A stretch of 50,142 nt of DNA, taken from positions 1 to 50,142 of the forward strand of contig JAKASS010000007.1 in assembly GCA_021818905.1 (NCBI GenBank), written 5' to 3'. A model generated the notes under the pieces. That model was given only the letters and a program-made list of their open reading frames with translations. It made no database searches and had not been told where the DNA came from. Position numbers and translations under genes: made by a program. Shown one piece after another: positions 3,079-49,363 of this stretch. This DNA comes from Nanobdellota archaeon. GTDB lineage: Archaea > Nanobdellota > Nanobdellia > Parvarchaeales > Parvarchaeaceae. Position 1 is the first letter of the stretch. The number at the start of each line of letters is the position of its first letter.

Positions 3079-5811
3079 ATGGTTGATTTAGACACGATAA
3101 AGAAACTAGTTGAAAAATATGAACGCCTAACAAACGAAGGGAAACTCAAGAGTTATAACGAAGAAACGACTAAAAAAGATTTTATTATACCATTATTTAA
3201 AGCGCTCGGATGGGATACCGAAAGCTCAGACGTATCTGCCGAAGAAACGATAAAAAATAAACGCGTAGACTATGGATTTAGAATAAATGGCATGCCTAAA
3301 TTCTTCTTAGAGGCTAAATCTTTACGTGAGGATGACATAATAACTCTCAAGTACGTCGAACAAGCGATTGACTATGCTTGGATGAAATCTTGTACTTGGG
3401 CGATTTTAACTAATTTTAGAACATTGATAGTATACAATGCAGAACAAAAAAATCCGGATCCGCGCATGAATTGGTTCCTAAAGTTCACGGACCCAAAAGA
3501 TTACATAGAAAAGTCAGATAAATTACTCTTATTGTCTCGAGATTCTATAGAACGAGGATTTTTAGATAAGGCTGCGGAAGAAGTTGGTAAAAAGGAATCT
3601 AAAAAACCTATAGACAAAGCTTTGCTAGATGATATAACAACTTTTAGAGAAGCCCTATATAACAATATTAAGAAAAATAATCAAACGAAAAATTTAAGCG
3701 AAGAAGAGATAGAAGAAGCGGTACAAAGAACAATAGACCGCTTGATATTTATCAGAAATGCAGAAGATAGAGGTTTAGAACCAGAAGAATTAAGATCTAA
3801 ATTAAGAGAATGGTCAAGTTCTGAAAATAGAAACTTATTAAGTTTCTTGGCCAAAGTTTATAATTCTTATAATGAAGATTATGACAGTAAGTTATTTGAG
3901 CCACACCTTTGTGACAAAGTAAAGATAGACGACGAAGTATTAGAAGAGGTAATAAATGGACTTTATGAATCAAAGGACAAATTATATAGATATGATTTTT
4001 CTCTGATTTCAGCCGATATTTTAGGTAACATATACGAACAATATTTAGGCAGGATCTTAAAAAAGACAGGGAAAACTAATAAGCTAGAAGCAAGCAAGGC
4101 TAAGAGAAAGTCAGAAGGGATATACTATACGCCAACCTACATTGTAGATTACATTGTAAGAAATACTCTCGGAGAATTAATAAAGGATAAAAAAATGGAT
4201 ATACCAAAAATAAAAGTATTAGACCCTGCTTGTGGTTCCGGGTCTTTTTTGATAAAAACCTTCGATATACTTAATGAATATTATAGCAAGAAAAAAGATT
4301 ACAGTCAAAACAAATTGGATATTAGCGGCACAGCTGCAACTTACACAACAAAACTCAGAATAGTTAAAGATAATATATTCGGCGTAGATTTGGATAAGCA
4401 GGCAGTGGACATCGCTCAATTGAATCTGCTGCTTAAAGTTGCTGAAAAGAAAAAGAGGTTGCCTATTTTGCAACAGAACATAAAGAATGGCAACTCGCTG
4501 ATTGACGACCCCATTCTCGCTGGAGATAAGGCATTTAAATGGAACGAAGAGTTTGCAGAGATAATGGGCAATGGCGGATTTGATGTTGTTATTGGGAATC
4601 CTCCTTATGGAATTGTGTTTAATGAAAAGGAGAAGAGGTATTTAGAAAATAATTTAACAGCATTTAGAAGAAATAATGATTTGTATGTAGCCTTTATCCA
4701 AAAGGCATTAAGTATTTTAAAAGAAGGGGGCCTATTTTCATTTATAATACCAAATACTTATCTAATAGGTTCATATTTCAATGATATTAAAAATTATATT
4801 CTCGGTAATACCAAAATAATTAAAATTTTAGATTTTGGGAACAACCACATATTCAAGGATCCAAGCGTGTTTAATTCTATTATAGTATTACAAAAAGAAT
4901 CTAATGATAAAAAACGGGTAGAAAACGTTATGGTCTTCCTAAGTTTTCCGTTATTAACAGAACACGAACTGTTGAATCTAGATAATTATAGTTTATCAAT
5001 AAAAATACCTCAAAATGAATTTATTAATTTAGAATGGCGTCCAAAAAATGAGATAATTGATAAAGTAATAAATAAAATGGATGCCACGGTGTCAGATTTT
5101 TGTGAAGTTAAAGATGTTGGGTTTAATTACTGGAGTGAGGGGCGTGGTAAAAAGCGAGGTGACTCAATAGGTAGTCGGATTCTTTATGAAGACGAATGCA
5201 AAAATCCAAAAGATGTACCCTTTTTGAAAGGAAGAGACTTGCTTCGTTGGGGGTATCGATTTGGTAATCATTGGCTACGTAATGATTATAAAAATTACCT
5301 TCAAAAAAATGATACATTTAGATTTAGCTTAGATTTCTTAAGACGGTCTCCAAAAATAATATATCGTCAAACAGCAGATAGAATCATTGCTACTCTCGAC
5401 TTCAATAAATATTATTTAGACAAGACGGTTCATCTTATAGTGCCAAAGGATGGTAAACAAATAAACTTATTTTTCTTATTAGGCATTTTAAATTCTACAT
5501 TTATTTTGTATTTTTATAGAGAAACTAGCCGAGAGAAAGGTCGAACATTTGCGCAAGTGATGACTGCTGATGTCAAAAAAATACCACTAAAATTTAATAC
5601 AATAATAGAAGCAAAAATAGGAGAATTAGTAAAGACTCAATTAAGTTTGACAGAACGACTTTACAAAATCGATAATTTTAAATTGATTGATACAAGTGCT
5701 TCAATAAAAGAAGAAATCGCTAAAACAGATAATAAAATTGATGAGCTTGTGTATAAACTTTATGGAATAACAGAAGAGGAAAAGAAAGTAATAGAAAAAT
5801 CGATAAAATAA
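3079..5811 (+). CDS. Type IIG-like restriction enzyme / adenine-specific DNA methyltransferase
   Basis: 910 aa. HsdR-N-like start (DYGFRINGMPKFFLEAKS), GIYYTPTYIVDYIV, VLDPACGSGSFL, GNPPYG, then a TRD-like C-terminus. Confidence 0.87.
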   Translation: MVDLDTIKKLVEKYERLTNEGKLKSYNEETTKKDFIIPLFKALGWDTESSDVSAEETIKNKRVDYGFRINGMPKFFLEAKSLREDDIITLKYVEQAIDYAWMKSCTWAILTNFRTLIVYNAEQKNPDPRMNWFLKFTDPKDYIEKSDKLLLLSRDSIERGFLDKAAEEVGKKESKKPIDKALLDDITTFREALYNNIKKNNQTKNLSEEEIEEAVQRTIDRLIFIRNAEDRGLEPEELRSKLREWSSSENRNLLSFLAKVYNSYNEDYDSKLFEPHLCDKVKIDDEVLEEVINGLYESKDKLYRYDFSLISADILGNIYEQYLGRILKKTGKTNKLEASKAKRKSEGIYYTPTYIVDYIVRNTLGELIKDKKMDIPKIKVLDPACGSGSFLIKTFDILNEYYSKKKDYSQNKLDISGTAATYTTKLRIVKDNIFGVDLDKQAVDIAQLNLLLKVAEKKKRLPILQQNIKNGNSLIDDPILAGDKAFKWNEEFAEIMGNGGFDVVIGNPPYGIVFNEKEKRYLENNLTAFRRNNDLYVAFIQKALSILKEGGLFSFIIPNTYLIGSYFNDIKNYILGNTKIIKILDFGNNHIFKDPSVFNSIIVLQKESNDKKRVENVMVFLSFPLLTEHELLNLDNYSLSIKIPQNEFINLEWRPKNEIIDKVINKMDATVSDFCEVKDVGFNYWSEGRGKKRGDSIGSRILYEDECKNPKDVPFLKGRDLLRWGYRFGNHWLRNDYKNYLQKNDTFRFSLDFLRRSPKIIYRQTADRIIATLDFNKYYLDKTVHLIVPKDGKQINLFFLLGILNSTFILYFYRETSREKGRTFAQVMTADVKKIPLKFNTIIEAKIGELVKTQLSLTERLYKIDNFKLIDTSASIKEEIAKTDNKIDELVYKLYGITEEEKKVIEKSIK

Positions 5812-5887
5812 CGTAAAAATAACCATCTTACTTTTAATAGATTATCGTTTAGTTAAAATTTGGCCGTCATAAATTTTTGGATTTTAT

Positions 5888-5920
5888 ATTTATCATACTA
5901 GTAAGATTTATCCTACTTTT
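5888..5920. repeat. Left member of a ~33-bp inverted repeat pair
   Basis: ATTTATCATACTAGTAAGATTTATCCTACTTTT is the reverse complement of 12026-12058 with about 3 mismatches. Confidence 0.75.
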
Positions 5921-6199
5921 ATAGATAAGACTTATTATGTTTATGAGAAAAGCGAGAGCAGTTTCATATGCGAATAATTTGATTATATATCAATAATTTT
6001 AATATAATATTTAGAGCGAATACTATGCTTTTATAACACTTATTTTGATATAATTTTACGAGGATTTAATCTAAGATAACAATACTAAGATAACAATATA
6101 TTATTTGCATTATTTAAAATGCTTTAGTCAAAAATTTGCCGATGAACGTGACTTAATTTTCATAAGGCTTAAAACTAAGAATAACCAAATAACAATTAT

Positions 6200-6640
6200 A
6201 TGGGAGCTATAAGAATAAGGCCCGCTAAAGACTGCGATTCCCAGGAACTTACAGACCTATATAGGAAACTCTACGAAGGAGACGAGAAAATGAAGTTTTA
6301 TTCATCGAAAGTCGTTCCTTCCAAAGTAAGATTTGGCAATAAGATCTTTGTCGTTAGGGAGAAGAAAAAAGTGGTCGGATTCTGCTGGGCGATATGGTAC
6401 GAACATATAAAGAACAAAGGAGTCGGCGTAATCGAGGAGTTATACGTTGATAAAGAATATAGGAGAAAGGGGATAGGTAAAAGACTGGTAGAAACCGCAC
6501 TAAAGTTCCTTGGTAAAAACTCGATCGCCGTATTCGTAAGCACCGGCGATGAAATGAAAGACGCGCAGCACTTTTATGAGTCGATAGGGTTTACACTTTG
6601 TAAAGGCCCTTGGTATGTTACTGTACCTAAAAAGAGTTAA
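6200..6640 (+). CDS. GNAT family N-acetyltransferase
   Basis: 146 aa with VIEELYVDKEYRRKGIGKRLVETALKFL, the GNAT acetyl-CoA binding motif. Confidence 0.88.
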   Translation: MGAIRIRPAKDCDSQELTDLYRKLYEGDEKMKFYSSKVVPSKVRFGNKIFVVREKKKVVGFCWAIWYEHIKNKGVGVIEELYVDKEYRRKGIGKRLVETALKFLGKNSIAVFVSTGDEMKDAQHFYESIGFTLCKGPWYVTVPKKS

Positions 6641-6656
6641 AAGTAAAATCTGATAA
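6631..6656 (+). repeat. Cassette-boundary repeat copy 1
   Basis: AAAGAGTTAAAAGTAAAATCTGATAA; contains the stop codon of the preceding GNAT. Confidence 0.8.
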
Positions 6657-6768
6657 AGAAAATCATGCTTGAAATAGGATCAAACCCGCGGAAGTCGTAG
6701 TATAATAAAAAAGAAAACGCGATTAAAGTTATTAAAACCGCCGTGACGTTTATCATTACAGGTGGGTC

Positions 6769-7116
6769 ATGAAACAAGACAAGTTGTCAGAGAGATATAA
6801 CAACGTGGCAATCGAATGTGCAGAAAAGTTGGCCTCGTTTGTCTGTCAAAAGCTCGTGGAAGGGGGAGTATACCGAGAAGTGAAGTTCATAAGGGAGTAT
6901 GATAGACTTGACATAGTATATGCGGAAGGCGTAGAACTGCATAAATTCGCATTTATTGCGATAGACTCGATCAAACCCGTTAGGGGCACACTGATAGATG
7001 TCGAATTTTACTTCGGTTTATACGAAGAGGGATACGAAAATCCTGCAGTGGATAAATGCATGAATTCCGCGTTTAAAGAGTATTGCAATGCAAAAATGAA
7101 AAAAGTTGAAGATTAA
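6769..7116 (+). CDS. Hypothetical protein
   Basis: 115-aa ORF between two repeat copies; no family recognised. Confidence 0.6.
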   Translation: MKQDKLSERYNNVAIECAEKLASFVCQKLVEGGVYREVKFIREYDRLDIVYAEGVELHKFAFIAIDSIKPVRGTLIDVEFYFGLYEEGYENPAVDKCMNSAFKEYCNAKMKKVED

Positions 7117-7125
7117 ATCTGATAA
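7100..7125 (+). repeat. Cassette-boundary repeat copy 2
   Basis: AAAAAGTTGAAGATTAAATCTGATAA; overlaps the upstream stop codon. Confidence 0.7.
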
Positions 7126-7146
7126 GTAATATGTACGGAACCGAAA

Positions 7147-7644
7147 TTGACCATAAGAAAAGCAAATAAAAAAGACTTCAATGAGGTGCTTAAGCTGATG
7201 CATAAAGGAATATACGCAGAATATAGTTCCTCGGTTGTGCGGCGCATGATGAAAAACTCCTACCCACAGGGCTGGTTTTTAGCATGTTTAAATAAAATGA
7301 TAGTTGGCGGGATAGCATTTTCTTCTTATGATAGCTATTACAATGCAAGCATCTTTGAAGTATCCTTTTTGGCGGTTAATAGACAAGAACGAAGCAGGGG
7401 TATCGGTAAAGCCCTGTTTAATAGCGCATTAAAGTCCATTAGGGAAAAACTTAAAGAAAAAGGAATAAAACTAGTGATGCTTTTTGTCCAAACTGATGGT
7501 GAAAATAAAGAAGCGATAGGATTCTACAGATCTGTTTTCAAAAGAGTCGGTAAAGTGACTGAAACGAGAATAAAAGACGCCTGGCCTAAAACCTGGTCCG
7601 GAGACAAAGACGTAGTCTTCATGTTCGTAAGGCTTAAAAGTTAA
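7147..7644 (+). CDS. GNAT family N-acetyltransferase
   Basis: VSFLAVNRQERSRGIGKALFNSALKSI motif; probable TTG start. Confidence 0.82.
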   Translation: MTIRKANKKDFNEVLKLMHKGIYAEYSSSVVRRMMKNSYPQGWFLACLNKMIVGGIAFSSYDSYYNASIFEVSFLAVNRQERSRGIGKALFNSALKSIREKLKEKGIKLVMLFVQTDGENKEAIGFYRSVFKRVGKVTETRIKDAWPKTWSGDKDVVFMFVRLKS

Positions 7645-7653
7645 ATCGGATGG
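7628..7653 (+). repeat. Cassette-boundary repeat copy 3
   Basis: AAGGCTTAAAAGTTAAATCGGATGG core; overlaps the upstream stop codon. Confidence 0.65.
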
Positions 7654-7660
7654 ATACCCT

Positions 7661-8071
7661 ATGACAAAGCCAATAAGACAGGAAGATGGCATGGGCTGCG
7701 GTGTTGCTTGCGTGGCATTTATTGTCGGACAAAGTTACAAAAAAACAAAAAATGATTTAATCAAGAACAGACAAAAAGCACTAAAACAAGGATATCTTTG
7801 CAAGGAGCTGGTCGATGCACTTAAAAGGGTGGGATTGACCTATACTTATCATTATTTGAAACGCCCGTTGAAATATAGAGATTCGATGATAGTATTCATA
7901 AAAAGATCGAAGAGATTCCCTCGTGGACACTATCTTGTAAAGACTAGCATGGGCTGGATGGATCCTTGGATCAATTTGAGTCCTAATGCCGACGTAAAAA
8001 AGAGCGTAGCAGGTTTCAGAAATAGACTTCCCGGTAAAGTTAGTTATGTACTTGTGCCGATAAAGAGTTAA
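7661..8071 (+). CDS. C39-like papain-fold peptidase
   Basis: IRQEDGMGCGVACVAFIVG (Cys motif), GHYLVKTSMGWMDPWIN (His and Asp). Confidence 0.7.
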   Translation: MTKPIRQEDGMGCGVACVAFIVGQSYKKTKNDLIKNRQKALKQGYLCKELVDALKRVGLTYTYHYLKRPLKYRDSMIVFIKRSKRFPRGHYLVKTSMGWMDPWINLSPNADVKKSVAGFRNRLPGKVSYVLVPIKS

Positions 8072-8087
8072 AAGTTAAATCTGATAG
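8062..8087 (+). repeat. Cassette-boundary repeat copy 4
   Basis: AAAGAGTTAAAAGTTAAATCTGATAG; contains the upstream stop codon. Confidence 0.8.
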
Positions 8088-8206
8088 ATAAGGGCGGATT
8101 AAAGACCGATATTAGCGTACAAAGATCGCGATTTTAACGCAGCATAATAGGGTGCCGCATAAAATTTATTAAAGCTTTAAATCTTTTTGCTGCTTGGATA
8201 TCAAAT

Positions 8207-8569
8207 ATGGATAAAGGCATAAGCATAAAATATTCAGGGATAGCGGAGAGCTTTTCAAAATACCTAAGCGCCGAGATGGGGGATAGGATAGATGCTATCA
8301 TTATATATGGTTCGGTAGCTAGAAAAGAGGCTAGAAAAAACAGCGATATAGACCTTATGATCGTCACTAAATACGCGGATAACATAGGATTTTTAAGAAA
8401 ATTATACCACATTAAAACCACATTCGAACAGCTAGCCGATTTCAAGTTTATTATATCGCTGTTCACCATAACACCAAAAACATTAGCGCAGGAGAAGAAA
8501 CTAAACACCCCTTTCATATCTAATGTAAAAAGCGATGCAGTCAGGCTGTATGGAAAGAAGGTCCTCTAA
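8207..8569 (+). CDS. Minimal nucleotidyltransferase (MNT-type, antitoxin-like)
   Basis: DAIIIYGSVARKEARKNSDIDLMIV nucleotidyltransferase motif. Confidence 0.85.
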   Translation: MDKGISIKYSGIAESFSKYLSAEMGDRIDAIIIYGSVARKEARKNSDIDLMIVTKYADNIGFLRKLYHIKTTFEQLADFKFIISLFTITPKTLAQEKKLNTPFISNVKSDAVRLYGKKVL

Positions 8570-8942
8570 AAATCTGCTCGAGAGCTATCTGGACCTCGCC
8601 GATAGGACGCTTGGATATGCTTATTCAAATCTGAAAGAAGACATGGTACGGCCGGCCATAAATTCAGCGTACTACTCTATGGTGTATTCTGCAAGTGCCG
8701 CGCTTCTAAAGGCGGGTATAAAACTACCAAAGACCCATAGCGGTCTTATTTCTATGTTTAATCTTTATTACATAAAAACTAAGAAAATCGATGGTAAGTT
8801 CTCAGAGTATTTCAGTCAGGCATTTGATGCAAGGCAAAAAAGCGCATACAGTGTGCTTACAGAACCAGATAAGAAAGTAGCGGCTGCTCTGTTAAGCAAT
8901 GCAAAAGAATTTGTTGAAACCATGAGGAATATAATAAGCTGA
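8535..8942 (+). CDS. HEPN domain protein (toxin-like partner of MNT)
   Basis: LESYLDLADRTLGYAYSNLKEDMVRPAINSAYYSMVYSASAALL; overlaps the MNT gene. Confidence 0.8.
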   Translation: MQSGCMERRSSKNLLESYLDLADRTLGYAYSNLKEDMVRPAINSAYYSMVYSASAALLKAGIKLPKTHSGLISMFNLYYIKTKKIDGKFSEYFSQAFDARQKSAYSVLTEPDKKVAAALLSNAKEFVETMRNIIS

Positions 8943-8943
8943 A

Positions 8944-9020
8944 GGATTATCCTTTTAGGAGAAGAGACAGGTTTTTACTACCATTTTGACAGCTAAAGAG
9001 TTAAAAGTTAAATCTGACAT
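8944..9020 (+). repeat. Cassette-boundary repeat copy 5, extended form
   Basis: ATTATCCTTTTAGGAGAAGAGACAGGTTTTTACTACCATTTTGACAGCT followed by AAAGAGTTAAAAGTTAAATCTGACAT. Confidence 0.8.
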
Positions 9021-9029
9021 AAACCAAAC

Positions 9030-9533
9030 ATGGCAGAATATACCAAAATCTATATTAGACCTATAAAAAGGACAGACGTTAATGACATTGTATGGCTTGA
9101 AAAGGAATTTGATGAATACTTAGAACGACTTTCTAAACATCGCAGAAAACCTTTCTCAACCAAAAATCATGCAAACCGAATACTTAAGGACGGCTTCGGT
9201 AAAAACAGAGCATTCCAGGGATTTATTGCCAGACGGGGAAACAGTGCGATTGGATATATTCTCTATCATGTTGGTTATGACCCAGACGAAATGCATGGTC
9301 GCGTGCTATACATAATAGATCTCTTCGTAACAGACGGCGTACGTGGACTCGGTGTGGGCTCGCGTTTGATGAAAGCCGTCGCAGTCGAATGCAAGAAAAT
9401 TGGCGGCATAGATATCTATTTTGGAGTGTGGCTAAAGAATAAATCGGCAATCAAATTTTACAAGAAAATTGGAGCAAATTGGGTCAAAGAAGTTCCTTTC
9501 ATGCGCTGGGATAAAAGCCACTGGAAGACATAA
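9030..9533 (+). CDS. GNAT family N-acetyltransferase
   Basis: YIIDLFVTDGVRGLGVGSRLMKAVAVEC and IKFYKKIGA. Confidence 0.87.
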   Translation: MAEYTKIYIRPIKRTDVNDIVWLEKEFDEYLERLSKHRRKPFSTKNHANRILKDGFGKNRAFQGFIARRGNSAIGYILYHVGYDPDEMHGRVLYIIDLFVTDGVRGLGVGSRLMKAVAVECKKIGGIDIYFGVWLKNKSAIKFYKKIGANWVKEVPFMRWDKSHWKT

Positions 9534-9546
9534 AGAGGGCAACTCT

Positions 9547-9585
9547 CATTTTGACAGCTAAAGAGTTAAAAGTAAAATCTGATAA
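9547..9585 (+). repeat. Cassette-boundary repeat copy 6
   Basis: CATTTTGACAGCTAAAGAGTTAAAAGTAAAATCTGATAA. Confidence 0.8.
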
Positions 9586-9593
9586 TTACTAAT

Positions 9594-10004
9594 ATGGATT
9601 GGAAAACTTTTGAAAAGGTGGCTAGGGCGAGAATGAGTAAAGAATTTAAATCCGATCTAACACCCTCATTTGAAGGAATCTCAATAAACGGCAAATCTAA
9701 GAAGTTTGATATGGAGAATACGCCCAATAAAATTGTAGGCGATGCTAAATTTTATACAAATACTAGTGGTGGTAACATTCCGTCTGCCAAAAGATCAACT
9801 GCGAATGAATACGCTTTCTTGATGCAAAAACTGGGGCCAGAATGGCGTAAGTTTTTAGTTTTTGGTAATAACAATAACAACGAGGATATGGCAAGAAAGT
9901 ACGTCGAAGATTTTAAACGCTGGCTTGTTGATGAAAATACTAGTACAGTAGAAGTTTATTTTTATGACTGGAAAAATGATAAACTAACTCTAATATTAAA
10001 GTGA
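9594..10004 (+). CDS. Possible PD-(D/E)XK nuclease-like protein
   Basis: SKKFDMENTPNKIVGDAKFYTN resembles a restriction-endonuclease-like D...DAK core. Confidence 0.4.
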   Translation: MDWKTFEKVARARMSKEFKSDLTPSFEGISINGKSKKFDMENTPNKIVGDAKFYTNTSGGNIPSAKRSTANEYAFLMQKLGPEWRKFLVFGNNNNNEDMARKYVEDFKRWLVDENTSTVEVYFYDWKNDKLTLILK

Positions 10005-10035
10005 GCCGCGAGATTGATTTAGCCACTTCTAATTA

Positions 10036-10083
10036 ATTATCCTTTTGGGAGAAAGGATGGGGGTTTCACTCGCCATTTTACAG
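10036..10083 (+). repeat. Degenerate extended repeat (copy 7, lacks the AAAGAGTTAAAA core)
   Basis: ATTATCCTTTTGGGAGAAAGGATGGGGGTTTCACTCGCCATTTTACAG aligns to 8946-8993. Confidence 0.6.
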
Positions 10084-10289
10084 AGTACCCTATATAACGG
10101 GTTTGCGACGAATGATGGGGATGAAAGGCCAACTTAATCCTATTTGAGGGCCTTTTCTAACTTATATGGGGGTCTGATACTCCATTAGATAGTGGGCACA
10201 GAGGTGCTTATAGACGTATCAGATAGTCTTAAAGAGGGTAAAAGACCCCTATTTTTGGACCTTTTTAGCAGTTTTTAGTAAGGGCAGTA

Positions 10290-10414: not shown

Positions 10415-10843
10415 TCATTGAAGGCCAAAATCTACGATTTTCTTGAACTCGTCTATTGTTATTGCGTTCTCTTTAAACTTGCTAAGTAGCTCCTTATCTT
10501 GGGTGATAAGCTTTACGCCCAACTCAATTGCTGCTTCTATATATGCTGCATCATAAAAAGTTATCTTATTTGACAACGAAAGCTTGCCGATCGCAGGAAA
10601 GTTCGCTATGGTGTATATTCTTAGATTGTTTAAGACTACGCTAAACATTTCAAAATTTGATGTCGGGTCCTTGATCTCTTTATCGAATCTTATCACATTT
10701 CCGAGTTCGTATCTTGTCAGGTCTAAAATAATAAAATTTTCTATGTGTTTACCAAGAAGCTCTGGATACTTCAAAATCAGAGGATAAAGTGCGGAAGTAT
10801 CAATTACATTGTGTCCCGTGTTTTCCTTACGGCTTTCACCCAT
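10415..10843 (-). CDS. PIN domain toxin (VapC-like)
   Basis: NVIDTSALYPLI...ELGNVIR...FYDAAYIEAAIELGVKLITQDKEL. Confidence 0.82.
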   Translation of the reverse strand: MGESRKENTGHNVIDTSALYPLILKYPELLGKHIENFIILDLTRYELGNVIRFDKEIKDPTSNFEMFSVVLNNLRIYTIANFPAIGKLSLSNKITFYDAAYIEAAIELGVKLITQDKELLSKFKENAITIDEFKKIVDFGLQ

Positions 10844-11031
10844 TCTTCTACGCTCACCCCCGTATTGTTTTCTCTAATCCATTTTATAGCAGATTCTAGC
10901 TCATTTTCTTTAACCTTTTTAAGCTCTTCTTCAAGAGTCTTCTCGATCAATTTTCGTATGTCTATGCCTCTTTTTACGGCTTCTTCTTTAAACTCTTTAC
11001 TTACTCTTACAGAAAGCACTTCGCTCTTCAT
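10804..11031 (-). CDS. VapB-like antitoxin
   Basis: SVRVSKEFKEEAVKRGIDIRKLIEKTLEEEL ribbon-helix-helix-like start; overlaps the PIN gene. Confidence 0.72.
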   Translation of the reverse strand: MKSEVLSVRVSKEFKEEAVKRGIDIRKLIEKTLEEELKKVKENELESAIKWIRENNTGVSVEEWVKAVRKTRDTM

Positions 11032-11072: not shown

Positions 11073-11684
11073 TCAAAATCCAAGTTTCTCTTTTATGAAT
11101 ATAACGGTCACCTTTCTTGCCTCGGGCATGATCCTTTCCATTATTAATATTTCTCCTATAAAACTGCCTTTGTACCCGGCATCTTTCATCCTTTTATCCT
11201 CTAAACGAAGGGACTCGTCTTTTATTCTTTTAAAGCCATCGTCCAGGTCCTTGACTATTTTCTGTGTACCGACTACAAGGATAAGATTATCAGCGGTAAA
11301 CGCATAAGCCCCTAATTGGCTGCCACTTGCGCTAGCAGTTAGTAATTTGCCATCTTCTGTCACGGCATGTACGCTTCCCAAAAAATATTTAGTGATTACT
11401 GAATGCTTTCTTAGTTCTGCTCTCTTAGCTGCGTCTGGTTCGTTTAATACAAGTTGTTTTTTATCTCGCCATCCGTTTTTTCCAGTTTTAAGCATGTCAA
11501 GAAAACCTATTTGAGCTAAGGTCGTAGAACTAGCGGTCATTACTTCAGAACCTTCAGGAATAATTTTTTTGAGTATTTTTATTGCAGCACTTTTATCTTC
11601 AGCGATCTCAACATTTATACCGTTAGATATCAACACCTCTTTTGCTTTATTTATTTTTTCATCATCTGCTAAAGTTTCCCACAT
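11073..11684 (-). CDS. LUD domain protein (lactate utilization family)
   Basis: GSEVMTASSTTLAQIGF...VHAVTEDGKLLTASASGSQLGAYAF...LILVVGTQKIVKDLDDGFKRI. Confidence 0.82.
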   Translation of the reverse strand: MWETLADDEKINKAKEVLISNGINVEIAEDKSAAIKILKKIIPEGSEVMTASSTTLAQIGFLDMLKTGKNGWRDKKQLVLNEPDAAKRAELRKHSVITKYFLGSVHAVTEDGKLLTASASGSQLGAYAFTADNLILVVGTQKIVKDLDDGFKRIKDESLRLEDKRMKDAGYKGSFIGEILIMERIMPEARKVTVIFIKEKLGF

Positions 11685-12025
11685 AATTTTATTCTCCGTA
11701 TCTGTCTTAATGAGAGTTAAGATTAAATATGTATTGGTAACTGTATATATTGTATAAAAAAAATAGAGTTGTATTTTAAAAAAGCGAAGATTTTACTTAT
11801 ATATTAATATAAATGACATCTATATAATTACTTTTTAATCAATTTTATTGCATATAAACGACTGATATTTTATAGATATTTAAATTAATATTTTATTACT
11901 AATTAACATATCGAATATAATGATATAAAAATAACGACAACGTGCTATAATTTTTATTATTTTGTCAAGCTATATCGCGCTTGATATTATTTAAAATTAA
12001 AAACTAATAAAAACCTTTAGAAAAG

Positions 12026-12058
12026 AAAAGTAGGATAAATCCTATTAGTAGGATAAAT
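12026..12058. repeat. Right member of a ~33-bp inverted repeat pair
   Basis: AAAAGTAGGATAAATCCTATTAGTAGGATAAAT; inverted match to 5888-5920; contains two direct AGTAGGATAAAT units 18 bp apart. Confidence 0.75.
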
Positions 12059-12468
12059 AAAAGGCCGTAGATATTATAATCCAATTAAAATTATAACTTT
12101 TATAAAATCAAATCTTTTTATAAAACCATATTCAGTGCCTCACTTTATTCAACGTTTACATTTTTTGAGAACTAGTGTAACGTCCAACGCTGCCGGATTT
12201 TTCCATCGGAAATCAACTAGTAATATCCTACCCGAAAAGGCAGAGAAGACCATAGACGGGTCTTACAAAATCCTGACAGCCGAAGAGAACGTAAATGTAT
12301 AATATTTTAATGTATGAGATGGAATTGGAACCTATTATATAAGTTTACATGGCACCCCCCCCAACAGAAATCGAATATCCACAGACATCTTGCCGAACTA
12401 ATGAGCTTGGCATCGAGTTTTATGGAATTCCAAACGCGTTTTCTCCTATAACTCCTCCAGTTCGACAT

Positions 12469-13076: not shown

Positions 13077-13559
13077 TTACGGTTCGGCACCGATTGCATC
13101 CTGAACCGCGCCCCTTATTTCGTTTACTTTCTTTTCGTTCAACTTGATTAAAATCGATTTGCATTTTACCAGAAAATCCGGTGCATCCTTTATCATCTTT
13201 TCATACTGTGCATCAGGCACGGTCCTATCTATGTAGTATTGGGAGTCTATCCTCGCTTTTAGGGACGATTCAAGGAACCGTATATCTTCTTTGTCGAAAT
13301 AATCGGTAAGGAAACGTTTCGCGAATTCTATCGTGCAGGAATGGATCTCGCATCTTATTCCCGATTTCATAAACAACGAATATAAGGAAAAATAAAGGGA
13401 GTAATAGGCTGTAGAGATCTTCCAATCTCTTACGGTGTTCAAGCTTATCGACTCTAGTGCCTCTTCGGCCTTTCTGAGATACGCTTCCGATAGCTCAGGA
13501 TTAGGTGCTATAAGACGCGATCCGTCTTTCTTTCCTGCGCACCACTTTACCTTATCCAC
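13077..13559 (-). CDS. HEPN domain protein
   Basis: LSEAYLRKAEEALESISLNTVRDWKISTAYYSLYFSLYSLFMKSGIR. Confidence 0.78.
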   Translation of the reverse strand: MDKVKWCAGKKDGSRLIAPNPELSEAYLRKAEEALESISLNTVRDWKISTAYYSLYFSLYSLFMKSGIRCEIHSCTIEFAKRFLTDYFDKEDIRFLESSLKARIDSQYYIDRTVPDAQYEKMIKDAPDFLVKCKSILIKLNEKKVNEIRGAVQDAIGAEP

Positions 13560-14142
13560 GTCCGAACACCTCCTTTACAAATTGCTCGGGATTTAAAAAG
13601 ACTACGTGGGATTTTAGCACTTCTTTGACTAAGACGTCATTGCGTAAAGCTTTTCTAAAGTTTTTCAACGGATAACATTTTATACTTATGTCTACGCCAT
13701 AGGTTTGGGATGCAATGTCTATTTGTTCACGATCGCATGCACCTGCGACAAATACGTCCAAGTCGGAGTCTTTTCTGGCAAGGCCCTTCGCATAGCTTCC
13801 GAATATGACCCCCATCCCATTGACATGCCTGCTTATTTTTTCTATTATTTCGGTTATCAGAGCGTTTCCGTTGAGAAAACTTATACACTTGTATTCCTCA
13901 CAGAATGCCGTATAGCGCCGACTAGTATCACTCTTTTTTAAACGATAAGAGATTATCTTCCCCCGTTTCTTAGAGGTCAGTATCCCCCTGTTTTCGAGGT
14001 CGGCGAGTATAGTCTGAGACGTCCTTGGGCTTATTTTGAGTGCCCTTTGTGCCTCCCTTATATAAAACTCATTGTCAAAACCATTTGTAAACAGAGAAAG
14101 CGCTTGCAGGTGGTTCTCCGTTATGTTTAATTTATTATACAT
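13552..14142 (-). CDS. wHTH-nucleotidyltransferase protein
   Basis: N-terminal wHTH-like region; GVIFGSYAKGLARKDSDLDVFVAG NTase motif; overlaps the HEPN gene. Confidence 0.82.
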   Translation of the reverse strand: MYNKLNITENHLQALSLFTNGFDNEFYIREAQRALKISPRTSQTILADLENRGILTSKKRGKIISYRLKKSDTSRRYTAFCEEYKCISFLNGNALITEIIEKISRHVNGMGVIFGSYAKGLARKDSDLDVFVAGACDREQIDIASQTYGVDISIKCYPLKNFRKALRNDVLVKEVLKSHVVFLNPEQFVKEVFGRG

Positions 14143-14418: not shown

Positions 14419-15359
14419 GGCACTGTTACCAAATACGGTTGGTGAATCTTAATTACATCGGCTGCCATCTTTATTTGAGGCAAAAATGGAAAACCGATGT
14501 AATTATTGTAAAAGCAGCAGTGTGTATTTAAATGGTTTTAGAAAGACGAAGACCAGGGGAAACATACAGCGATATCGCTGTATGTCCTGCGGTAAGACGT
14601 TCGTGGAAAATGTCGGTTTCAGGTGGAAACACCATGCGAAACGCACCATGATCGGCAGTATCCACCTCCATCTGATAGGATCGTCGCTTAGGGAAGCTGC
14701 AAAGTTCCTTTCCGTGTCCACAAATTCCGTGTTCAGATGGTTCGTGGAATACGGAAAGATGATCATAGGATATGCAAAGGACATCAAGCCTTTCAGGACG
14801 GAAAGGCTTCACATGGACGAGATGTTCATAAAGATGCGCGGAAAGTCCTTTTACATATGGGCTTCCATCTGCAGGGAGAGCAGGTTTGCCACGGCTTTTC
14901 TCGCTTCCGACAGGACGAAGAAGAACGCCAGACTGCTGATGAAAGAGTCTCCGCCTGCCATAAACATCACCACAGACGGAGCCTTTGGATACGGCTCCGT
15001 CATAAGGGAAGTCAGGGGATCGTGGTACTACCACGATCATTATCACCGTTGTGCTTCCTTTGAGGACAAGAAGGACAATGATCCCATGGAAAGACGGGAC
15101 AATCCCTATCGTGCTGATACTCACGAGCTTCGCGGCTTCAAGAAGCTCGCCACTGGAGACTTGTTCGTAAGATTGTGGACGTTCTACTATGACTTCATAA
15201 GGCCGCATTCTTCCCTCGGTAGGACCCCCGCTGAAGAAGCGGGGCTTGTAAGGTATCACGAAGACGATGATTGGTTTGGACGGTGGGAACGATGGGTCGA
15301 GAGGGCTTCGCTCTCTTTTTATTTGGCTTTATATACCAACCGTATTTGGGAACAGTGCC
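14419..15359 (+). mobile_element. IS6-like insertion sequence with TIRs and 8-bp TSD (AAGTAATG)
   Basis: Left GGCACTGTTACCAAATACGGTTGGT; right ACCAACCGTATTTGGGAACAGTGCC; AAGTAATG at 14411-14418 and 15360-15367. Confidence 0.9.
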
Positions 15360-15544
15360 AAGTAATGCGGTACTGGCAGCAGAAATGGAAGGAAAAGGTC
15401 GGATACGGCAGAAGATGGCTGGTCAAATCCTTCTTCTCCGCCTTTAAGCGGAGGTTCGGGGAGCACGTATGCTCTAGAAGGTGGAAGTCTGTGCAGAACG
15501 AGGTCAAGCTGAAGGCGATGCTTTACAATCAGCTGATCGTCTGA
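14486..15544 (+). CDS. IS6-like DDE transposase reading through into a second transposase C-terminus
   Basis: CxxC zinc-finger start, HMDEMFIKMRG, TTDGAFGYGS, RPHSSLGRTPAEEAGL; the tail RRWLVKSFFSAFKRRFGEHV...LYNQLIV is typical of another transposase family. Confidence 0.8.
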   Translation: MENRCNYCKSSSVYLNGFRKTKTRGNIQRYRCMSCGKTFVENVGFRWKHHAKRTMIGSIHLHLIGSSLREAAKFLSVSTNSVFRWFVEYGKMIIGYAKDIKPFRTERLHMDEMFIKMRGKSFYIWASICRESRFATAFLASDRTKKNARLLMKESPPAINITTDGAFGYGSVIREVRGSWYYHDHYHRCASFEDKKDNDPMERRDNPYRADTHELRGFKKLATGDLFVRLWTFYYDFIRPHSSLGRTPAEEAGLVRYHEDDDWFGRWERWVERASLSFYLALYTNRIWEQCQVMRYWQQKWKEKVGYGRRWLVKSFFSAFKRRFGEHVCSRRWKSVQNEVKLKAMLYNQLIV

Positions 15545-39364: not shown

Positions 39365-39450
39365 TGGGCCCGAGGGGATTTGAACCCCCAACACACTGGT
39401 TTCTTTAAAGTTTAAGAGCCAGTTACTCTACCGAGTTGAGCTACGAGCCC
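39365..39450 (-). tRNA. tRNA-Lys(CTT) with probable 12-nt intron after position 37
   Basis: GGGCTCG/CGGGCCC acceptor, D and T arms, anticodon stem ACTGG/CCAGT enclosing 19 nt (CTCTTAAACTTTAAAGAAA), i.e. 7-nt loop plus 12 nt. Confidence 0.85.
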
Positions 39451-39517: not shown

Positions 39518-39590
39518 GAGCCCATGGTCTAGTGGTTATGACGTCTCCCTTACACGGAGAAGGCCGGGAGTTCGAATCTCTCTGGGCTCA
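39518..39590 (+). tRNA. tRNA-Val(TAC)
   Basis: GAGCCCA/TGGGCTC acceptor, anticodon stem TCTCC-CTTACAC-GGAGA, T arm GGGAGTTCGAATCTCTC. Confidence 0.92.
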
Positions 39591-48377: not shown

Positions 48378-48797
48378 CTAATCTCTCAATGATTTTATTA
48401 TGTGCTTGCACGTTTCTAGGCTCTTCCGCACCGCCTCGAAATATTTGTCGACAAGTTCCTTAAGCATCGTGTTGGATGTCCTGCTATCATACATGTATCC
48501 GCTTTCGTTGCGCAGCCCGAGAAGGATATAAAAAAGGTCTACTATCTCGGTCACGGCTTTCTGGTCTATGTTTTTATTTTTAAATTCGTCGAGGACCCTT
48601 TTGACTACATTACCTATGTCGTGGGTCTTTAGCGGGTCTGCCCTCGTCGCCATCAGGATCGCTTTTAACATTATCTCCAGGGACATCTCGAGCGAATAAA
48701 GACTGACGTTGTAACTCCCGCCGCGTCGCGTGTCTTCCGCGGCTTTAAACCACAAACTGGATGTTTCGAGCGCTGCGTCTATCCTGTCTTTTTCCAT
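48378..48797 (-). CDS. HEPN domain protein
   Basis: LETSSLWFKAAEDTRRGGSYNVSLYSLEMSLEIMLKAIL; overlaps the NTase gene. Confidence 0.78.
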   Translation of the reverse strand: MEKDRIDAALETSSLWFKAAEDTRRGGSYNVSLYSLEMSLEIMLKAILMATRADPLKTHDIGNVVKRVLDEFKNKNIDQKAVTEIVDLFYILLGLRNESGYMYDSRTSNTMLKELVDKYFEAVRKSLETCKHIIKSLRD

Positions 48798-49363
48798 CTC
48801 ATGACCCTTACGCCTTCGATAATATCGTACGAAGTTTTTATTCTATTTATACGCTTAAAGAAATCGGACAATACTGAATCCCTCTCGAATAAGATTATGC
48901 CGTCTCTTGCGATATCGATATAGATCGGCCTGAACGATGCAAGGTCCTCTCTAGCGACTATGAGGGGGCTTATGTAGAGATAAAGTCCTTTCTTTAAAAA
49001 CCTATCCTCGTATTCGTGCAGTTCCGAACGCACTGAATAGAGCTTCTCTATCACCCGTGGGGTCTTATCGGCGACCACGATGAATAAGTCTATATCGCTA
49101 TACTTACGATAAGTCCCCCTTGCTACGGAACCGAATATGGCCGCACCTATCACGTCATCGAATTTTTTTATTTTTTCTGCGAAATTGTACAGATACTCCC
49201 TTACATCCTTGTCTAAGGCAGTTATCGCATACTCCGTCGATACGAGACGCCGTATAATGCTATTGAAAGTGGCCTTGCCCGACTCCTCTTCCAATGCTTT
49301 TTTTAGTCTCTTGAGTTTTTCGTAAGTATCCTCACTCAGTAGCACCGGTCTATATGTTTTCAT
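48779..49363 (-). CDS. Nucleotidyltransferase with N-terminal antitoxin-like DNA-binding region
   Basis: GAAIFGSVARGTYRKYSDIDLFIVV; N-terminus VLLSEDTYEKLKRLKKALEEESGK. Confidence 0.85.
   Translation of the reverse strand: MKTYRPVLLSEDTYEKLKRLKKALEEESGKATFNSIIRRLVSTEYAITALDKDVREYLYNFAEKIKKFDDVIGAAIFGSVARGTYRKYSDIDLFIVVADKTPRVIEKLYSVRSELHEYEDRFLKKGLYLYISPLIVAREDLASFRPIYIDIARDGIILFERDSVLSDFFKRINRIKTSYDIIEGVRVMRWKKTG

Follow-up and report, generated by a model that had tools for sequence, protein, structure and literature searches.

The locus described here lies in a 50,142-nucleotide (nt) stretch of DNA, the window, which comprises positions 1 to 50,142 of contig JAKASS010000007.1 from the Nanobdellota archaeon assembly GCA_021818905.1. 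This source genome, referred to as G000, is 945 kb long in 25 contigs, is rated 100% complete, and belongs to the Parvarchaeota (acid-mine archaea); all genomes compared with it, each denoted by G and a number, are metagenome-assembled genomes (MAGs). A row of small plus-strand genes, separated by copies of a 26-bp repeat, runs up to a conserved noncoding element, beyond which the genes lie on the minus strand and form a mirror-image array. The parts of this locus, with window coordinates, strand and identity (protein lengths in amino acids, aa), are as follows.

5860–6120, no strand: left AT-rich block; TTATCCTAC at 5908 is the inverse of the right-block motif
6200–6640, plus: cassette 1, GNAT acetyltransferase; homologues adjoin the element in G004 (truncated) and G020
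6631–6656, plus: repeat S1, promoter type; ATG at 6665, 29 nt past the core, opening an 11-codon remnant
6665–6700, plus: remnant open reading frame (ORF) MLEIGSNPRKS, probable relic of a lost cassette
6769–7116, plus: cassette 2, orphan of 115 aa; no Pfam match
7100–7125, plus: repeat S2, degenerate
7147–7644, plus: cassette 3, GNAT acetyltransferase; TTG start
7628–7653, plus: repeat S3, degenerate; start codon 28 nt past the core
7661–8071, plus: cassette 4, C39-family peptidase-like (Pfam)
8062–8087, plus: repeat S4; no start codon at promoter distance
8207–8569, plus: cassette 5a, MNT-type nucleotidyltransferase; its G023 homologue immediately precedes the element
8535–8942, plus: cassette 5b, HEPN (Pfam)
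8946–8992, plus: left-edge copy of the element, hairpin TTATCCTTTTAGGAGAA and a tail ending GACAG; 78% identity
8995–9020, plus: repeat S5, fused to the left-edge copy; ATG 30 nt past the core
9030–9533, plus: cassette 6, GNAT acetyltransferase; homologues in G004 (82% DNA identity) and G023 (other side of the element)
9542–9557, plus: tail CATTTTGACAG, common to S5
9560–9585, plus: repeat S6; ATG 29 nt past the core
9594–10004, plus: cassette 7, 136 aa, no Pfam match; missing in G004, where the element directly follows cassette 6
10036–10246, plus: conserved element (anchor), about 211 nt; the right-edge module extends to about 10295
10415–10843, minus: PIN-domain protein, toxin-like; right-hand gene facing the element
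10804–11031, minus: short partner gene, antitoxin-like by position only
11073–11684, minus: LUD-domain protein, right-hand gene; homologue on the left in G012 and on the right in G024
11700–12062, no strand: right AT-rich block; GTAGGATAA motifs at 12030 and 12048

A first-pass annotation, made from the letters alone, had reported six same-strand copies of the repeat, and all six are present on the plus strand. In a search allowing up to 3 mismatches, for which the expectation from 100 dinucleotide shuffles was 0, the copies at 6631, 8062, 8995 and 9560 matched the 26-mer with 1 to 2 mismatches; those at 7100 and 7628 are degenerate, with more than 3 mismatches, yet real. A repeat profile trained on 11 sites (six from the window, five from relatives) scored all six window copies at E values of 4e-7 to 3.4e-4, these being training sequences themselves, and across 37 genomes the next-best match beyond the 11 training sites was at chance level. 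Within the whole 945-kb genome the repeat is confined to the array, so that it is not an ordinary genome-wide motif, and it is virtually missing from 140 relatives at the same stringency. The contents given for the units largely held as well: Pfam recognized three GNATs (GNAT1 to GNAT3, in order), the C39 peptidase, and MNT (Polbeta) with HEPN. The orphan at 6769 and the last cassette (9594–10004) matched no Pfam family, and the "nuclease-like" label proposed for the latter is therefore unsupported.

A motif search upstream of 236 genes of the genus found AARYTTWWAW at about −33/−32 before the ATG, and these sites are the leaderless promoters of the genus. The repeat conforms to them: in 8 of 11 copies (from the window array, G004, G015 and G020) a start codon follows the TTAAAA-like core by 28–30 nt, a distance that agrees with the genus promoter position. 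In S1, in G015 and in one G020 copy the start codon opens only an 11-, 14- or 34-codon remnant, respectively, as though a previous gene had been removed. Judged by its sequence and position, the 26-bp repeat serves chiefly as a leaderless promoter that the units have in common, found upstream of the genes as in a co-regulated promoter array. Each cassette would therefore bring its own promoter, and the idea of promoterless cassette genes fails for that reason. The repeat had also been put forward as a new attC-like site; a stronger candidate for the joining site is the edge of the conserved element, which had been overlooked at 10036–10246 along with its partial left-edge copy at 8946–8992.

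The element, about 211–250 bp long, stands right after the last cassette. About 13 genomes from the genus and family carry it, most often as a single strong copy, and a weak match comes from one other family; the relatives with the element are Candidatus Parvarchaeota or Nanoarchaeota MAGs. Several copies lie near contig ends, and some of the genomes that seem to lack the element may do so because of an assembly gap. Different small genes stand beside it in different genomes. Its first motif, the hairpin core TMTCCTTTTRGGAKAA, is matched exactly 12 times in 55 genomes: ten matches belong to copies of the element, the other two to junctions inside an array (S5 and one in G010), and none lies elsewhere. 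The stretch between the HEPN stop codon and S5 copies the left edge of the element (Smith-Waterman score of 24, against a best of 11 in 300 shuffles), and S5 switches from edge to promoter at GACAG/CTAAAGAG, where the intact element continues TTTACAG/AGTACCC. Left-edge copies were found at 8946 in G000 and at −819 in G010, and a right-edge copy in G010 at +840 to +896. Left-edge copies lie between left cassettes and right-edge copies between right cassettes, so that target-end repeats mark unit borders as in tandem island accretion.

We considered what kind of sequence the element might be. It matched no Rfam family and contains no tRNA, consensus folding was weak, and hairpin covariation did not exceed the control; on these results we rejected a known RNA family. 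A viral carrier was likewise set aside, as the element pattern was not found in IMG/VR. A contig-database scan for the pattern matched 11 records, four of which (Ligilactobacillus, Saprospiraceae, Rhodospirillales and Gemmatales) are isolated, lie outside the group, and are at chance level for the pattern. Inside the element, at about 10117–10124 of the window, the word ATGGGGAT is replaced in G009 and G016 by its reverse complement, ATCCCCAT; other genomes carry other G/C-rich four-letter centers at this position in conserved surroundings, and the close relatives G010 and G016 differ by a GGGG/CCCC switch.

Gene order at the locus is not conserved among relatives, and the array behaves as the first-pass annotation had supposed of cassettes, with relatives carrying other cassettes at the element. 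In the sister genome G004, a single variant repeat joins a truncated GNAT1 to GNAT3 (82% DNA identity), and the element follows; the orphan, GNAT2, the C39 gene, the MNT–HEPN pair and the last cassette, five units in all, are missing at repeat borders. The order is reversed in G020, where a GNAT3 remnant precedes GNAT1. In G023, an MNT homologue and a truncated HEPN adjoin the element, across which a GNAT3 homologue is found. A unit with a 90-aa gene is common to G010, G015 and G016 at 97–99% DNA identity. Together with its 107-aa neighbor and the left part of the element, it is about 99% identical between G010 and G015, whereas the adjacent MNT–HEPN pair is 77% identical; because neighboring genes are only about 75% identical, a recent transfer of the two-gene unit appears to have taken place. 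This unit (90 aa and about 107 aa), some 760 bp left of the element in G015 and G010, has a toxin-antitoxin-like layout and no confident Pfam match.

Two further comparisons locate the borders. A cassette for a 133-aa membrane protein, with its linker, adjoins the element in G016, whereas its G010 counterpart lies next to an internal hairpin, and the homology between the two ends at the hairpin. In G016 and G031, which belong to different genera, the 3' end of a cassette is 87% identical, including hairpin and tail; the homology stops after GGACA, with unrelated cassettes beyond, and this breakpoint is at the same place as the switch from edge to promoter in S5. Taken pairwise, these alignments show cassettes apparently gained, lost, reordered and transferred.

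The right-hand side of the element mirrors the left. A right-edge copy at a right-side junction is clear in G010 (the copy at +840 to +896, nhmmer E value of 1.1e-5); those in G026 are weak or were seen by eye. On the right side of both genomes, dissimilar ORFs are enclosed by the same kind of promoter region, about 70 nt long, and by this 3' module. Across 12 loci, 79 ORFs were called mechanically in the space bounded by the AT-rich blocks, and 75 of them face the element; p-values for this count are not to be taken literally because the ORFs are not independent. On either side the pocket is bounded by an AT-rich block with inverted GTAGGATAA motifs, and such blocks have no counterpart elsewhere in 316 kb of G023, in 100 kb of G004 and in the 50-kb window; low-complexity AT-rich matches flooded one comparison and were excluded as evidence of homology. 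We rejected the possibility that the whole pocket is a transposon with AT-rich inverted ends, as G010, G026, G015 and G020 share neighborhood genes, for which reason the locus looks fixed in the clade.

A tyrosine or serine recombinase near one end of the array would, in the first-pass annotation, have supported a cassette system, and none was found in G000. A search for the tyrosine recombinase family PF00589 gave no match there and was positive in 14 of 14 control genomes; PF00589 and PF00239 are missing from G000, G004, G010, G012, G015 and G016, and such enzymes are lacking in most of the element-bearing relatives searched. Tyrosine recombinases do occur in some members of the genus (G008, G009, G011, G013 and G017), and no serine resolvase was found in the genus members searched. 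The Y1 transposase family PF01797 is absent from the same six genomes and, G009 aside, was not found in any element-bearing genome searched; mobile units of the IS200/IS605 (HUH) type were rejected on the evidence of those six. None of the pocket proteins examined by Pfam is a recombinase. As no known recombinase was found, an unrecognized enzyme, an enzyme supplied in trans, or homologous recombination between common modules would have to account for the joining.

The comparisons show modular units with common borders, turnover, transfer and an orientation rule. With moderate confidence, we read the locus as one side of a two-sided pocket of gene cassettes in Parvarchaeota that is anchored on the element. 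A left cassette consists of a leaderless promoter (the repeat) and one ORF or a two-gene unit, and some left cassettes also have a 3' module copied from the left edge of the element (the hairpin and a tail of about 28 nt). Right cassettes have a different common promoter region and sometimes a 3' module copied from the right edge. In this model, cassettes would enter at the element edges in a fixed orientation, and every entry would leave an edge copy behind. The element would act like attI or a target gene, and the edge-plus-promoter junction (about 75 bp) like attC, with an enzyme that acts in trans, belongs to an unrecognized family, or is the host homologous recombination machinery working via the common modules; the attI-like role of the element at the array end is one that we infer. 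We put forward tentatively that this is a previously undescribed two-sided site-specific cassette system, in which cassettes with their own promoters are inserted on either side of the conserved element by a recombination enzyme yet to be recognized, copy the edge each time, and circulate between DPANN genera.

Several observations weigh against the pocket reading. A clear hairpin is found only at S5 and at internal junctions of G010, G016 and G031; junctions S1–S4 have no hairpin and consist of the repeat alone, the composite junction of G015 did not score above shuffles by Smith-Waterman, and the G010 break falls at the hairpin, not at the end of the tail. Some right-hand genes may be paralogues, their common promoters then reflecting duplication, and outside the pocket 111 of 163 ORFs likewise face the element. 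No recombinase was found for the locus. Loss and gain are not polarizable in MAG comparisons, in which several element copies lie near contig ends.

The locus is not an integron, as none of the recombinases searched for was found in G000 and no attC structure is found. The integrons known from archaea to date have IntI and attC as their defining features, and clusters of attC sites lacking an integron integrase (CALINs) are also known in archaea (PMC9668308). The pocket and integrons have several features in common: cassettes are small, lie on one strand, mostly hold a single gene and are rich in GNATs and toxin-antitoxin-like genes; they stand beside a special site, some junctions of about 75 bp have a hairpin, and cassettes vary in presence and order. 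In contrast to integrons, the locus has no tyrosine recombinase, no R''/L''/L'/R' structure by inspection, cassettes with leaderless promoters of their own, two arrays converging on one element, and junctions with element-edge copies. By inspection, the repeat also lacks a paired RYYYAAC, as had been noted from the start, and its GTTRRRY-like word varies (GTAAAAT in S1 and S6). With no PF00589 protein in the complete G000 genome, a true integron or CALIN whose attC sites have diverged is most improbable. Of the archaeal cassette system first proposed, then, the cassette array stands and the integron-like, repeat-based joining does not.

A more conventional version of the favored reading, which it overlaps, is the tandem accretion of very small nonautonomous islands into an unrecognized noncoding RNA gene, with integrases acting in trans from visiting elements and each integration restoring the gene end. 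In the ssrA islands of Dehalococcoides, copies of the target end lie between units, and islands lacking an integration module occur (PMC3146451). Accretion at tRNA or transfer-messenger RNA genes shares with the pocket a fixed target, an end repeated at the borders, variable cargo and many integrase-free units, and the tyrosine recombinases of five genus members might serve as the trans-acting source. The units at the pocket, unlike those islands, measure merely 0.4–0.9 kb, with one or two genes, and both target edges are used; the target, a noncoding element without a tRNA or Rfam match, has the weak RNA folding and control-level covariation described above, and is associated with no serine or tyrosine integrase, most element-bearing genomes searched having none. 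We regard accretion as possible and somewhat doubtful.

The locus might instead be a tolerated hotspot of accessory genes without a dedicated system: its repeats would be promoters that are duplicated or regulated together, and genes would be exchanged through deletion and ordinary homologous recombination at these short common sequences. The standard leaderless distance of the repeat promoter and the failure to find a recombinase fit this view, as does the tract of about 99% identity between G010 and G015, which fades gradually inside the element like a tract of homologous exchange. Conserved regulatory sequences over diverse small genes are documented in archaeal viruses, the rudivirus genome ends bearing accessory gene arrays with a common early promoter (PMC11065993). 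Those arrays resemble the pocket in their small unrelated genes, each with a near-identical TATA/B recognition element (BRE) regulatory sequence; the pocket, unlike them, is a chromosomal Parvarchaeota locus anchored on an element whose edges recur between genes, with no viral genes noticed nearby and no match of the element in IMG/VR. To our knowledge, rudivirus arrays have no anchored element. Such a hotspot alone leaves unexplained the edge copies on both sides, the near-fixed orientation and the hairpin motif found nowhere else, and it is in our judgment rather unlikely. Confidence in these rivals overlaps with that in the pocket, since either integrases supplied in trans or homologous recombination could be driving one and the same locus. 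A role of the element as origin or terminus of replication, with gene variability incidental, would agree with its usual single copy, with AT-rich blocks unique on three contigs and with converging genes. Such a role is very unlikely: no skew extremum or strand bias over long distances was seen in G023 or G004, and in five genomes with the element cdc6 is on a different contig; most of the element-bearing genomes searched also have no Xer-type recombinase.

Growth of a clustered regularly interspaced short palindromic repeats (CRISPR) array offers a further analogy, in that insertion at a fixed site duplicates a short boundary sequence. The units there are spacers, whereas those of the Parvarchaeota pocket are genes, and no connection with Cas1 was seen, a point on which no test was made; duplication of the boundary at each insertion would be common to both.

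Other features of the window lie outside the pocket. A Type IIG restriction-modification enzyme (3079–5811; PADLOC REase_MTase_IIG) is found immediately to its left, and two transposase-like genes flank the region, at 158–1366 (ISAzo13-type DDE, by Pfam) and 14486–15544 (by inspection only). Candidate nucleotidyltransferase/HEPN-like pairs were noted by inspection at 13077–14142 and 48378–49363, and G000 seems rich in such modules. A tRNA on the minus strand at 39365–39450 was found by an Rfam match; the only tRNA that ARAGORN detected was the tRNA-Val at 39518.

A paper on Parvarchaeales genomes (PMC10134863) makes no mention of cassettes, integrons or repeats, although the subscription literature lay mostly outside our search. 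The element and its edge modules provide simple handles for metagenome tests by way of junction reads and excised circles. Genomes of less than a megabase in host-dependent archaea are generally regarded as streamlined; here, even such genomes appear to reserve one site for the rapid exchange of genes. Movement of cassettes at defined borders without a known integrase would, if real, imply a new recombination mechanism and a new route of gene flow among DPANN archaea.

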